A DNA stretch of 63,756 bases from Cyanobium sp. T1B-Tous. GTDB lineage: Bacteria; Cyanobacteriota; Cyanobacteriia; PCC-6307; Cyanobiaceae. Below, in pieces: positions 35,328-40,828 of the stretch (the first letter of the stretch is position 1; the number at the start of each line of letters is the position of its first letter). The translations under genes were made by a program, and so were the position numbers. Location of the stretch: positions 1-63,756 of the forward strand of contig NZ_JAGQBE010000006.1 of NCBI RefSeq assembly GCF_024345475.1, written 5' to 3'. The notes beneath the pieces were generated by a model. The model was given only the letters and a program-made list of their open reading frames with translations. It ran no database searches and was not told where the DNA came from.

Positions 35328-35906
35328 TCAGTAGCCGCGCAGCTGGTCGAGCTCCCCACGGCTGTGCAGTTCAGCGAGGGCGTCGTAGCCGCCGATGGCC
35401 ACCCCATCAATGAACAGTTGGGGCACGGACTCCCCGCCACTGGGTTCGAGTTCAACGAAGGGAATCCCCAGGGTGCGCAGCATGCGCAAGGCCCGCCGGG
35501 TGTAGGGACAGCCCGGGAGTCCGGCAATTTCCACCCGGGGTACCCCGGGCTGGGCAGTCTGGGCGGGGCTGGGTTCGGCATCGGTCAGCAGACCGACGAG
35601 CAGATCGGCCCCCCGCAGCACCAGGGTGCCGTATTCGAGGTGCCCCCCCCACACCTGGCACTGGCCATCGGAGAAGCTCAGGTGGAGGTGCACCCCTTCC
35701 GGCGCCAGGGTGCCCTGCAGGGTGATGATTTCAAGCTCTCCGCTGAGCAGCGTGGGTGCTGCCTGGCCCGGGCAGGCGAAGGCCGCCTGCGACAGGTTCC
35801 CCACCACGCTCAGCACAAAGCCACCGGCGTTTTGGGTCAGGGCCAGCTGCTCGAGGCTGCGGCGCACGTCGCTGCCGGCATCAAGGTGGAGCGGCAGGGC
35901 GCGCAT
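35328..35906 (-). CDS. DUF296 (PPC) domain fused to glutaredoxin
   Basis: A 192-residue two-domain protein. Residues 1-107 match the plant and prokaryote conserved (PPC/DUF296) domain (MRALPLHLDAGSDVRRSLEQ opening, GFVLSVVGNLSQA, SGELEIITLQGTL). Residues 122-192 are a glutaredoxin-like thioredoxin fold with CPYT at 133-136, so only one active-site cysteine, plus VPQLFIDGVAIGG for glutathione binding. ATG 35906 is chosen by the PPC N-terminus; GTG 35954 would overlap the SDR gene by 4 bp. Confidence 0.8.
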   Translation of the reverse strand: MRALPLHLDAGSDVRRSLEQLALTQNAGGFVLSVVGNLSQAAFACPGQAAPTLLSGELEIITLQGTLAPEGVHLHLSFSDGQCQVWGGHLEYGTLVLRGADLLVGLLTDAEPSPAQTAQPGVPRVEIAGLPGCPYTRRALRMLRTLGIPFVELEPSGGESVPQLFIDGVAIGGYDALAELHSRGELDQLRGY

Positions 35907-35950
35907 CGCTGGGGCTGAAGCTCGCGGCAGGTTACGCCGGCCAAGGCTGG

Positions 35951-36616
35951 TCACCAGGGCAGCACCTCGCCGTTGGCATGCCAGAAGGTGCCCGAGCTCT
36001 CCAGCGTGAGGGCATCGATGCGCTGGAGCAGTCCGCAGACCGCCTCCTCCGGGCTGATGCCCTGGGAATTGAAGTTCACCATGCGGGTGCGCACCAGGCC
36101 TGGGTGCAGGATCGCCACGGCGATGCCCCGGGGCCGCAGGTCAATCGCCAGCGATCGGCCCGCCATGTTGAGCGCCACCTTCGACATCCGGTAGCCGTAG
36201 GAGCCGCCGGAGCTGTTGTCGTCGATGGATCCCATGCGGCTGGTCATCAAAATCAACTTGGATCCGGCCTGCAGCTGGCCCAGAAGAGCCTGGGTGAGCC
36301 GCAGGGGTCCCAGGGCATTCACCTCAAACTGGCGGCGCATGCTGGCGAGATCCAGCCGCTCGAGGCTGGTGGATTCCAGGAGTCCGGCGTTGTGGATCAG
36401 CCCATCGATCGGTCGTCCGTCGAGCCGCGCTACCAGGTTGGCGATCGACTCCCCAGCGGTGATGTCCACGCCGGATTCCAGGCGAACACCCAACGCCTCG
36501 AGCTCCGGTGATGGCTGCCGACACACGGCGATCACCTGCTCCCCCCGGGCCTGCAGCTGGCGGCAGTACTCCAGACCGATGCCCCGGTTGGAGCCCGTGA
36601 CAAGGAAGGTCTTCAA
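35951..36616 (-). CDS. Short-chain dehydrogenase/reductase
   Basis: A 221-residue NAD(P)-dependent SDR. The nucleotide loop is TGSNRGIG (residues 8-15), with HNAG, and the catalytic Ser...YGYRMSK set. The substrate is unknown. The start is TTG 36616. It may head the run SDR, DUF296-glutaredoxin, unknown, rhomboid. Confidence 0.88.
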   Translation of the reverse strand: MKTFLVTGSNRGIGLEYCRQLQARGEQVIAVCRQPSPELEALGVRLESGVDITAGESIANLVARLDGRPIDGLIHNAGLLESTSLERLDLASMRRQFEVNALGPLRLTQALLGQLQAGSKLILMTSRMGSIDDNSSGGSYGYRMSKVALNMAGRSLAIDLRPRGIAVAILHPGLVRTRMVNFNSQGISPEEAVCGLLQRIDALTLESSGTFWHANGEVLPW

Positions 36617-37501: not shown

Positions 37502-38584
37502 CTAGGAACGGTCGTGGATCAAACAACGGCTCACAAAGGGTGACGTCATCGCGCGCAGCAGGGCGCTGTAGCTCAAGCCAAAGCGCAGTTCATCGCCCAC
37601 CTGGGGTGGCGTGCCGCAGGATCCGATCACGAGGTGGTCACTGGAGGCCCCCCGGATTACCACCCCCTCAGGCGGGCTCAGTCCTGCCGGGTCCACATCC
37701 TGTTCGCCGACGGCCACCAGGGCTCTCAGTTCGCCGGCGTGTGCTCCTGGCGCCTGGGGACGAGCCCTCTGGCTTGAGAAGCTCGTGCGGCGACGCTGCC
37801 CCCAGGGGTGGCTGGGTTTGGTCTTGGCCTCGATCACCTCCGTCACCAGGGTGATGGCATCGGTGTGCAGCCCGGGGATGGCCGTGCCTCCAAGGGGCTC
37901 CCGGCCCAGCAGCAGGGCCTCCCCCAGGCGCAGATGGTTGACCCGGCCCGGCTCACCCCCCGCGGCCAACCAGGGAAGGTTGGCGGAATTTCCCCCGGAG
38001 CACCAGGGCAGATGCACCAAGAAGCGGCGCTCCAGGGCTGTGGCCAGGCGGGAGAGCTCCGCCATGTTGCTCGCATCGGGGGCCACGCCGTGTTGGCAGC
38101 CCAGGTTGGTGCCGATTCCCATCAGTTTCAGGTTGGGAAGGGCCAGCGTCAACTGGGCCACGGCCTCCAGATCGGCAGCCAGGATTCCCTCCCGCAGATC
38201 CCCGAGTTCCACCATCAACACAACCCCATGGCGCACCCCCTGGCGTGCAGCCGTTCGGGCCAGGGCCTCCAGCACCACCGGTTCGCTGTTGCAGCTGATC
38301 GCCGCGTGGGCCACCACCCGCTCCACCTGGCTGAGCATGGGTGCCCGAATCAGCAGCATCGGCACCGTCACGCCGCTGGCGGCCAAGGCTTCGATGGACT
38401 CGATGCGGGATTCCCCGATCGAGCCGATTCCTGCGGCCACCCAGGTCCGCACGATGTCGGTGTCGCCCAGGGTGGCCTTGCTCACCCCCGTTACCTCGAT
38501 CCCCTGCTGGCCGAGGCGCTCCACCAGGACTTGGGCGTTGTGCCGCAGCCGCTCGAGATGAATCTCGAGGCGCGGTGCGCTCAA
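37502..38584 (-). CDS. Alanine racemase-like PLP enzyme (ornithine racemase type)
   Basis: A 360-residue fold-type III PLP enzyme with the barrel of the alanine-racemase N-terminal family. The PLP lysine is probably in VSKATLGD (about residue 36). The pattern resembles ornithine or other basic amino-acid racemases (Orr) rather than Alr. A low-complexity basic insert (about 260-285) interrupts the C-terminal region. It starts with TTG, overlapping the DUF1611 stop by 4 bp (TTGA). The substrate is not known. Confidence 0.78.
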   Translation of the reverse strand: MSAPRLEIHLERLRHNAQVLVERLGQQGIEVTGVSKATLGDTDIVRTWVAAGIGSIGESRIESIEALAASGVTVPMLLIRAPMLSQVERVVAHAAISCNSEPVVLEALARTAARQGVRHGVVLMVELGDLREGILAADLEAVAQLTLALPNLKLMGIGTNLGCQHGVAPDASNMAELSRLATALERRFLVHLPWCSGGNSANLPWLAAGGEPGRVNHLRLGEALLLGREPLGGTAIPGLHTDAITLVTEVIEAKTKPSHPWGQRRRTSFSSQRARPQAPGAHAGELRALVAVGEQDVDPAGLSPPEGVVIRGASSDHLVIGSCGTPPQVGDELRFGLSYSALLRAMTSPFVSRCLIHDRS

Positions 38585-39723
38585 GCCACACCGCGTCGTT
38601 GGCCGCTGAGTTCGGGAAAGGCTCGCAGCACCATGGTCACCAGGCGGGAGGCCGGTCGGCTGACCGCATCGGTGACGGGGATGGCGAGCTCTGCCTCATA
38701 GAGCGCGATGGCGGCGGTCAGTTCGGCGTCATCCATTCCCTCATGGTTGATCGTCAAGCCGATCACCCGGGTGGGGGCGAAGGCCTCGATCAGGCGGATC
38801 TCACTGGTGGGGGTGGGCATGGCAACAAAGGGGAAATCACTCAGATTCCGCCGGGCGGGGGCGTGTTGGAGGATCACCGCCTGGGGCTGGCTGCCGCGCA
38901 GGATGAAGGCCGAGGAGAGGTAGGCGGGATGGCTGAGCGCCCCCTGCCCCTCAATCACGATCACGGCCGGATGCTGGCTCTCGAACGCCTCCACCACCGC
39001 TCCCTCGACCGCTCCGGAGCAGAACTGGGAGGGGATGGCATCGAGGGGGATGCCGAAGCGTCCACCCTGGATCAGGCCGGTCTGACCGGTGTTCACCAGC
39101 ACGGCGTGGATGCCATGGTCCTGGAGGGCCTTCACCAGCAGGGTGGCCGTGGTGCGTTTGCCGATCGCTCCATCGGTGCCGAGCACGGCGATGCGCAGGC
39201 AGTTCGCCCTGGCAATCGATCCATCAAACAGCCGTAAATCCTTCAAGGCAGCGGGACGACGGACGTCCCGGATCCACACCTGCTGTCGTTGGGCCACTGC
39301 CGCGAACTCGGCGTCGTCGCCGAGAAATTCGCGCATGCCACTCACTAGGTTGAGCCCTGAGGCCATCGCCTCCAGCAGGGCCTGGCGGTCTTCAGGGCGG
39401 AACAGACCGTTGGCTGGAGCCATCCCGTAGATGAAGGTGTCGGCGCGCACTCCGGCCAGGGCCAGGGCGGCCGCCAGATCGGTCACGATCGGAATGCCAT
39501 TGGCAACCCCATCGAGCACCATCCCCGCATCCAGGCCCGCACTGTGGCTATCCACCACGGCACGGATCTCAAAGGCATCGCAGTGACGCACCAGCCCGTG
39601 GGCGGTTTTGCCATCGAGTCCGCTGAAATGCCCTTCGCAGTGAACGATCGCAACCCGGCGCTGGACTGTGGACAGCCGACTGAGTGCCGGGGACAGGTCA
39701 GAGACCTGCGTTGAAAATGTCAA
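38581..39723 (-). CDS. DUF1611 family protein (DgcN-like)
   Basis: A protein of about 380 residues with an N-terminal Rossmann-like region (RVAIVHCEGH, DSHSAGLDAG) and a C-terminal P-loop GTDGAIGKRTT, the layout of DUF1611. The characterised member DgcN is a D-amino-acid N-acetyltransferase in D-glutamate catabolism. No ATG lies near the N-terminus: TTG 39723 has a GAGG 11 bp upstream, and TTG 39750 is the alternative. It is coupled to the racemase gene, suggesting joint D-amino-acid metabolism. Confidence 0.78.
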   Translation of the reverse strand: MTFSTQVSDLSPALSRLSTVQRRVAIVHCEGHFSGLDGKTAHGLVRHCDAFEIRAVVDSHSAGLDAGMVLDGVANGIPIVTDLAAALALAGVRADTFIYGMAPANGLFRPEDRQALLEAMASGLNLVSGMREFLGDDAEFAAVAQRQQVWIRDVRRPAALKDLRLFDGSIARANCLRIAVLGTDGAIGKRTTATLLVKALQDHGIHAVLVNTGQTGLIQGGRFGIPLDAIPSQFCSGAVEGAVVEAFESQHPAVIVIEGQGALSHPAYLSSAFILRGSQPQAVILQHAPARRNLSDFPFVAMPTPTSEIRLIEAFAPTRVIGLTINHEGMDDAELTAAIALYEAELAIPVTDAVSRPASRLVTMVLRAFPELSGQRRGVA

Positions 39724-39802
39724 AGAGGCCAGACCTCGTCGGCCGCGCAACGTTGGACGGCGCAGACGTCAGAAGCACAGAGGTGGCCGCTGAATGGCGT
39801 GG

Positions 39803-40828
39803 TTAATCCATGCTAGGTGGCATATCTGGATCGAGGGGATCGGCCAGCAGCTCGGCGATCTGGTTGTGGCCGTTGCCCTGGGCCAGAAACAGGGCCCGCT
39901 CCGCCCGCAACAGCAGATCGTGAATGCCGGCATCCCCTGGTGCCAGGAGGGTGAGCCCCCCGCTGATGTGGAGCCGGTGGCCACTGCCCCTGAACACGCC
40001 ACCCAGCTCGGCGATGCCGCAGCGAATCGCTTCAGCCCGCTCCATGGCCCCTTCCGCGTTGGCATCCACCATCAACAGGGCGAACTCCTGGTCGCCGATC
40101 TGGCCGATCAGGTCTTTGGGACAGAGCTGGGAGCGGAGCAGCTCGGCCACATCCTGGAGGGCCCGGTCCGAGGCTTCCTGCCCCCATCGGTTTCGGATCT
40201 GGCTGAAGTGGTCGATCTCGATCGCCAGGAGTGCCAGGTTGGCGCTGGCCGTCCGAGCGCGCTCCAGCTCCGGCTTCGCCTGCTCCAGGAAGCTGATCCG
40301 GTTGGCGAACCCGGTGATCGGCTGGACCGTGGCCAGGCGGCGGAGTTCGAGTTCGCGCAGCACCAGCTGGGCCAGGTCTTCGAGCAGTTTCACCTGGTTG
40401 GCACTGAAATGCCTTGGCAGTCGATCGATCACACAGAGCGTGCCGAGGTTGTGGCCCTCCCGGCTCTGCAGGGGTGTACCGGCGTAAAAACAGACCTTGG
40501 GGTCGCCGGTGACCAGGGGATTGGTGCAGAAGCGGGGGTCCTGCCGCGCATCGGGCACCACCAGGGTTTCGTCACTGGCAATGGCATGGGCGCAGAAAGC
40601 CATCTCCCGTGGCGTTTCCGTGGCCTCGAGGCCATGGCGGGCGAGGAACCACTGCCGATCGCGATCCACCAGGGAAATCAGGGCGATCGGGGTCTCCAAC
40701 ACGGTGGAGGCCAGCTGGACCAGCCGGCTGAAGTGCTCATCCTCCGGTTGATCGAGCACGCCCTGACGCTCCAGGTCACGCTGGCGCTGGACCTCGTTCG
40801 GCAGGATCGGATAGTCGGGGTACGGCAC
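39803..40828 (-). CDS. GAF-GGDEF protein with degenerate GGDEF motif
   Basis: A 341-residue signalling protein. The GAF domain (about 20-165) has the typical FCAHAI and GTLCVID strands. The GGDEF domain follows (about 175-330), but the active loop reads GDQEF where GGDEF is expected. Cyclase activity is uncertain; it may bind GTP or act as a regulator. It is cytosolic. Together with the HD-GYP protein it points to cyclic-di-GMP signalling. Confidence 0.88.
   Translation of the reverse strand: MPYPDYPILPNEVQRQRDLERQGVLDQPEDEHFSRLVQLASTVLETPIALISLVDRDRQWFLARHGLEATETPREMAFCAHAIASDETLVVPDARQDPRFCTNPLVTGDPKVCFYAGTPLQSREGHNLGTLCVIDRLPRHFSANQVKLLEDLAQLVLRELELRRLATVQPITGFANRISFLEQAKPELERARTASANLALLAIEIDHFSQIRNRWGQEASDRALQDVAELLRSQLCPKDLIGQIGDQEFALLMVDANAEGAMERAEAIRCGIAELGGVFRGSGHRLHISGGLTLLAPGDAGIHDLLLRAERALFLAQGNGHNQIAELLADPLDPDMPPSMD

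Follow-up and report, generated by a model that had tools for sequence, protein, structure and literature searches.

What does a PLP-dependent racemase do together with a protein of the DUF1611 family when the genes for the two overlap? The question was raised by a contig of Cyanobium sp. T1B-Tous (NZ_JAGQBE010000006.1 of assembly GCF_024345475.1), of which positions 1 to 63,756 were analysed; this whole stretch is referred to here as the window. The initial annotation had read the two genes (Table 1) as a short pathway in which an ornithine-racemase-type enzyme is joined by a DgcN-like acetyltransferase for the D form. The pairing points to a widespread two-step amino-acid pathway that has so far gone unstudied. 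A literature search found no description of a DUF1611–racemase pairing; it returned papers naming DUF1611, but not on this subject judging by their titles, and no paper combining DUF1611 or DgcN with ornithine racemase or dipeptide epimerase.

Table 1. Features of the DUF1611–racemase locus, listed in the direction of transcription.
Feature	Position	Strand	Details
GAF–GGDEF protein	39803–40828	minus	Pfam assignment; upstream of the DUF1611 gene, 79 bp gap, co-directional
DUF1611 protein	39723–38581	minus	380 aa; PF07755 and PF17396 above cut-off
TTGA overlap (DUF1611 stop TGA, racemase start TTG)	38581–38584	minus	4 bp shared
Orr-like fold-type III PLP racemase	38584–37502 (TTG start, TAG stop)	minus	360 aa; Ala_racemase_N above cut-off
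SPFH/Band_7 membrane protein	37475 (ATG)–36666	minus	Band_7 above cut-off
Short-chain dehydrogenase	35951–36616	minus	Pfam assignment; co-directional with the pair

The 4 bp overlap of the two genes was confirmed, as was the placing of the SPFH gene, the start codon of which lies 26 bp past the racemase stop codon. An in-frame TTG is also present at 39750 ahead of the DUF1611 gene; a homologous copy on contig C83 of the same assembly begins at the equivalent of 39723. The SPFH protein scored 103.5 bits against Band_7 (Pfam; cut-off 23.6). The co-directional run is longer than had been stated and comprises the genes for the GAF–GGDEF protein, the DUF1611 protein, the racemase, the SPFH protein, the short-chain dehydrogenase and a protein with PCC and glutaredoxin domains. 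The last two genes, at 35328–36616, overlap by 4 bp (35951–35954), and the presence of PCC and glutaredoxin domains in one gene is in our view an unusual combination.

The source genome (2.7 Mb in 122 contigs, 99.0% complete, 2.7% contaminated) contains a second GGDEF–DUF1611–racemase–SPFH block on contig C83, the proteins of which are 72–75% identical to those of the window. This contig (12.6 kb) is 95.7% identical to and colinear with Cyanobium usitatum over 9.5 kb and has a GC content of 61.6% versus 67.4% for the window; for these reasons it was treated as probable contamination of the assembly by a foreign contig, and a duplication giving two paralogous blocks in one genome was dropped as an explanation.

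To follow the conservation of the pair, the DUF1611 proteins of the window and of C83 were aligned, and genomes were scanned with this alignment. The best 80 of 296 relatives were kept, so that these loci were chosen by DUF1611 similarity; searches based on the racemase were run in addition. The closest scan match, Cyanobium sp. FACHB-13342, was 93% identical at the level of the DUF1611 protein. A racemase gene was found directly downstream of DUF1611 in 78 of these best 80 loci; of the other two, L080 is cut off by the end of its contig right behind DUF1611, and L049 has no racemase in the flank available. With the overlap length scored from the nearest in-frame start, 65 of the 78 paired loci showed a 4 bp overlap and six a 1 bp overlap, and the remaining seven had another spacing or no standard start. 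The pair occurred under seven phylum names (Cyanobacteriota, Actinomycetota, Pseudomonadota, Myxococcota, Nitrospinota, Verrucomicrobiota and Krumholzibacteriota) as given by NCBI; many of the pair-bearing genomes are MAGs, and a MAG may be mislabelled. Such an arrangement is far beyond chance, and the coupled pair proposed for picocyanobacteria is both present in them and conserved well outside the genome in which it was noticed.

The racemase-based searches gave the same picture. Across 292 sampled genomes of the phylum, nine genes in eight genomes scored above 280 bits on the ornithine racemase (Orr) model, the next best reaching 54.5; all nine adjoined a DUF1611 match, two of them being the window gene and its doubtful C83 copy. 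In a sample of 201 genomes of the family, 41 matched the racemase at E ≤ 0.001, 35 with a full-length copy (one of which, in G366, carries an internal stop), two with fragments only and four weakly only. DUF1611 lay beside the racemase in all 19 loci fetched from the family search. No fusion of the two proteins was present among the fetched loci.

Trees were calculated by a quick method with SH-aLRT as the only support measure, and long-branch warnings were given. The DUF1611 set went from 138 to 126 rows: two short ones (L090 and L093) and any copies of the window gene were removed, and close copies were thinned. The racemase tree excludes weakly matching rows and those shorter than 300 aa. 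Partner labels were taken from tblastn or phmmer matches inside each locus. In the racemase tree (101 rows) the 92 sequences with DUF1611 in their locus were separated by one change from the nine without it (SH-aLRT 99). In the DUF1611 tree the rows with a PLP partner and those with an enolase partner were split by a single change with seven rows of unknown partner uncounted, and the PLP label took three changes when these seven were counted. Patristic distances in the two trees were correlated with r = 0.87 over 83 shared rows, the highest value among 2000 permutations being 0.16. That the adjacency reflects two unrelated genes hitch-hiking together, with no functional meaning, is extremely improbable in view of these congruent trees and of an overlap kept in 71 of the 78 loci across seven named phyla; nothing speaks for it directly, beyond the rarity of the pair in the phylum overall (8/292 genomes), most members of which do without the module.

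The pair is also found on plasmids. A plasmid search with the racemase returned 21 records, 16 of which were fetched, and DUF1611 adjoined the racemase in seven of the 16. Pair-bearing plasmids of Vibrio and Phaeobacter were mobilisable or conjugative, and others, from Vibrio, Ruegeria and Aliiroseovarius, were typed as non-mobilisable. Its parts are known, and as a two-enzyme module the pair is both conserved and transferable. Relatives of the window-type DUF1611 protein without a racemase were seen in L049 and in all seven loci from a viral collection (47% identity). In the latter contigs (L214–L220) the DUF1611 gene follows one for NhaA, and no racemase match was present within the 3 kb flanks (7/7). 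The viral-contig NhaA is 70% identical to an NhaA encoded near a Vibrio plasmid pair. In L214, the sole contig of this collection in which the genes were read, the genes that come after belong to the ArsR family and to the SBF transporter family, the latter encoding, judged by eye, an arsenite exporter.

The racemase matched Pfam Ala_racemase_N with 91.3 bits (cut-off 24.1). Against the Orr model NF040742 it scored 302.1 bits over residues 4–353, below the curated cut-off of 480, while an Ilyobacter protein annotated as Orr scored 520.3 bits. Motifs shared with the Ilyobacter protein in an alignment include the surroundings of K36, GDLREG, N160–C163, SGGNS, R219, SSDH and Y339. The PLP lysine, K36, is invariant in 46 aligned sequences and aligns with that of the genome's own alanine racemase Alr, which is encoded on contig C37 (343.8 bits). 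The assignment to the ornithine-racemase type stands as far as the near full-length match and the common motifs go; in score the protein stays under the Orr cut-off, and in the tree it belongs to a separate clade tied to DUF1611. It shares its overall fold with Alr as well as the PLP lysine, but reached only 27.4 bits on the alanine racemase model TIGR00492 (cut-off 168), and the genome has a separate Alr. The closest structures to the predicted model (pLDDT 92.8) were alanine racemases, which matched almost all of its length (Z up to 29.9, 327 aligned residues, rmsd 3.3). D-Threonine aldolase and D-serine dehydratase structures were near to or tied with them, so the fold score does not settle the choice; an aldolase or dehydratase identity was set aside because the paired proteins carry the Orr-family motifs.

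The partner protein scored 216.2 bits against PF07755 (cut-off 25) and 85.1 bits against PF17396 (DUF1611_N; cut-off 22.6). It consists of a Rossmann-like N-terminal domain and a P-loop C-terminal domain with an intact Walker A motif, GTDGAIGKRT, containing K189 (380-residue numbering). The solved structures closest to its AlphaFold model (pLDDT 88.3) were 2obn (Z 41.3), 2g0t (Z 38.2) and DgcN, 7xrj (Z 32.7); the model and 7xrj aligned over 322 residues with an rmsd of 4.1 and 27% identity. On the DgcN model NF041892 the protein scored 154.7 bits, and the curated cut-off of 480 was not reached. Calling it DgcN-like was apt for the fold, 7xrj being among the closest structures, but does not carry over to the score or to the tree, where the DUF1611 partners of the PLP racemase branch apart from the enolase-linked DUF1611 proteins, true DgcN included.

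A DUF1611 gene of the enolase-linked kind occurs in the same genome. It lies on contig C1 and overlaps a gene for an enolase-superfamily protein with MR_MLE domains above the Pfam cut-off; the best NCBIfam matches of the latter, DgcA (156.6 bits, cut-off 400) and L-Ala-D/L-Glu epimerase (110.7 bits, cut-off 343), are both below threshold. Among the 30 best-scoring phylum-sample loci fetched, an enolase match adjoined DUF1611 in 25, so that DUF1611 genes recurrently adjoin genes for likely amino-acid-inverting enzymes. The window pair resembles the C1 pair in that a likely stereoinverting enzyme is encoded directly beside DUF1611, but the enolase partner lies upstream and the PLP racemase downstream. 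The comparison with DgcN–DgcA is similar: a DUF1611 gene stands next to that of a likely amino-acid-inverting enzyme and the two-domain fold is the same, but the partner is a PLP racemase rather than an enolase-type protein, the DUF1611 proteins are 27% identical, and the window protein scores below the DgcN cut-off and sits on a separate branch. A tblastn search (1e-8) with the C1 enolase-type protein gave no match in loci L006–L093, a range that covers the 80 scan loci as well as the window's own locus (L091). Twelve pair-bearing genomes, hand-picked from the 80, were searched with the DgcN model; five also hold a true DgcN above the cut-off, each with an enolase-type match beside it. Judged by sequence, the PLP-linked DUF1611 protein is a separate paralogue and a different enzyme from DgcN, not a missed DgcN, because these five genomes contain both.

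Beyond its own family, the C-terminal half of the model matched SIMIBI P-loop NTPases, namely BioD (dethiobiotin synthetase), CTP synthase, cobyrinic acid a,c-diamide synthase and MinD, with Z about 14 over 166–189 aligned residues and an rmsd of 3 to 4. By its predicted fold and the conserved GTDxxxGK, this half of the protein has the fold of the SIMIBI P-loop NTPases. A GNAT acetyltransferase fold was absent from the structure matches listed, a list which in itself excludes nothing. In an alignment, the Walker A motif GTDxxxGK, E258 and N326 were common to all three DUF1611 groups (present in at least 93% of the 86 rows of paired proteins, 85% of the 28 linked to an enolase and 80% of the five of DgcN), as was K39. 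C29, R190, Q233 and H327 were kept in at least 93% of the 86 paired rows, the usual residue at each being different in both other groups. Departures from the pattern at 190 and 326 are seen in two distant pairs from cyanobacteria, L086 and L088, both with Ser at 326.

Shared motif and fold raise the alternative that the DUF1611 protein is a SIMIBI-class ATP-using enzyme (a ligase, a kinase or a carboxylating type, compare dethiobiotin synthetase and CTP synthase) acting on a D-amino acid, and not an acetyl-CoA-dependent acetyltransferase. We regard this as rather unlikely: fold alone proves no function, the family member 7xrj is titled N-acetyltransferase DgcN, and excerpts of two later papers cite dgcN as the key gene of a D-Glu route (PMC12363236, PMC10845958). 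The proposal of a racemase followed by an acetyltransferase for the D form has partial support: on its side are the coupling of the genes, the Orr-family motifs and the place of 7xrj among the nearest structures, and against it are two proteins below their curated cut-offs and a P-loop NTPase fold.

The reading that we favour, at somewhat less than even confidence, is that of a co-translated and horizontally mobile module in which a D-amino acid is produced by the PLP racemase and then modified by its DUF1611 partner. Weighing against it, besides the curated cut-offs and the fold, are the relatives of the DUF1611 protein that lack a racemase, the want of a regularly accompanying deacylase or dedicated transporter among the neighbours examined, and the rarity of the module in the phylum (8/292 genomes). 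As a first step the racemase would convert a free amino acid between its L and D forms, as its family and motifs suggest. In the second step the DUF1611 enzyme may modify the amino group of the D form; homology to DgcN hints, weakly, at N-acylation as the most likely modification, which would pull the racemase reaction towards the N-acyl-D-amino acid. A PLP enzyme forms an imine with the amine of its substrate, which has to be free, and the racemase must therefore act before any acylation. In the DgcN–DgcA order acetylation comes first and the enolase-type enzyme then inverts the acetylated product. If the DUF1611 enzyme of the pair acylates, the PLP version would run in the reverse order, racemising and then capping, to give an N-acyl-D-amino acid. 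Enolase-type racemases act on N-acyl substrates according to an excerpt of a review, in which kinetics with N-acetyl-methionine are listed (PMC8142540). A fuller version, in which the mobile module, under at least seven phylum names, turns an L-amino acid into its N-acyl-D form (perhaps N-acetyl-D-ornithine, -lysine or -arginine) with a possible role in stress or at the envelope, is conceivable, with the balance against it.

The substrate of the first step is possibly basic, i.e. ornithine, lysine or arginine. Among the unpaired racemase homologues are three fusions with a domain of the arginase family; these are proteins of 595 aa, with this domain C-terminal to the Orr-like racemase, from Roseateles, Sinorhizobium and Shinella (L204:7001–8785, L206:5001–6785 and L213:5001–6785). 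The Roseateles gene lies beside those for a D-amino acid dehydrogenase and 5-guanidino-2-oxopentanoate decarboxylase, and the fused loci look like an arginine racemase pathway. The Shinella gene also follows one for a D-amino acid dehydrogenase. A further unpaired homologue, on a Salmonella plasmid, is 2.4 kb from argT. For the pair itself these homologues give a weak hint of a basic substrate, since they are only 35–39% identical to the window racemase.

If a module that makes and caps D-amino acids is real, it is a common gene pair whose halves may be filed in surveys under unrelated labels, alanine or ornithine racemase for one and DgcN or DUF1611 for the other. Makers of D-amino acids could then be told apart from D-glutamate eaters among the carriers of DUF1611, and picocyanobacteria and roseobacters would gain a route to an uncharted metabolite.

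The neighbours of the pair were examined with a crude gene caller, taking the nearest genes of at least 90 aa (68 loci downstream, 71 upstream), and ten proteins selected by eye from the surroundings, some of which were not nearest neighbours, were run against Pfam. No consistent transporter, deacylase or regulator stood beside the pair in these 68 downstream and 71 upstream neighbours. Some of the genes found would suit a catabolic module for scavenging D-amino acids, in which the racemase converts D to L and the DUF1611 enzyme handles or detoxifies the excess: peptidases of families M81 (L042, L045), M19 (L059) and M42 (L074, L082) and a family 5 solute-binding protein, part of a peptide-type transporter (L068). 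Few of the 80 loci have such neighbours, which were selected by eye, and a PLP racemase alone would suffice for D-to-L conversion, leaving the second enzyme needless; we consider catabolism unlikely and keep to the making and modification of a D-amino acid.

At least six of the 80 scan loci, each from a cyanobacterium, have the window-type SPFH gene with the pair (downstream in four, upstream in two), a lower bound as some loci end near the pair. SPFH was rejected as a functional partner of the module on account of this restriction to six loci and to cyanobacteria, and is a local, lineage-specific neighbour rather than a part of the conserved module. It is nevertheless one of several genes that would fit an island for stress or the envelope, whose product protects the envelope or acts as a solute and whose partners include SPFH, NhaA and chaperones. 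HflK and HflC are encoded near the pair at least in scan locus L039 and in two of the seven pair-bearing plasmid loci (Vibrio and Ruegeria). NhaA is encoded on a Vibrio plasmid and beside DUF1611 in the seven loci of the viral collection, two plasmid loci have GroEL/GroES, and a Cys-rich repeat protein that looks secreted is encoded in 25 of the 80 loci of the scan. Each of these is confined to one lineage or to few loci, and they were examined post hoc, without a background rate, so that we hold such an island to be very unlikely as the explanation of the pair; the two-enzyme module remains the preferred one.

The gene for the Cys-rich protein (e.g. L053:5001–5858) is usually upstream of the pair on the same strand, often with one for a membrane-like protein of 117 aa, and its hosts are roseobacters, some Myxococcota and gammaproteobacterial MAGs. 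Its repeats resemble PxNAxLxxxGxxWxCxxGY; no Pfam family was above cut-off in L053, and EGF_MSP1_1 was matched in two plasmid copies. In all four Vibrio plasmid loci (L198, L199, L201 and L210) a gene for a small lipoprotein annotated as GspS-beta overlaps or closely follows the racemase gene, and in L198 the T2SS pilotin domain of this protein was confirmed.
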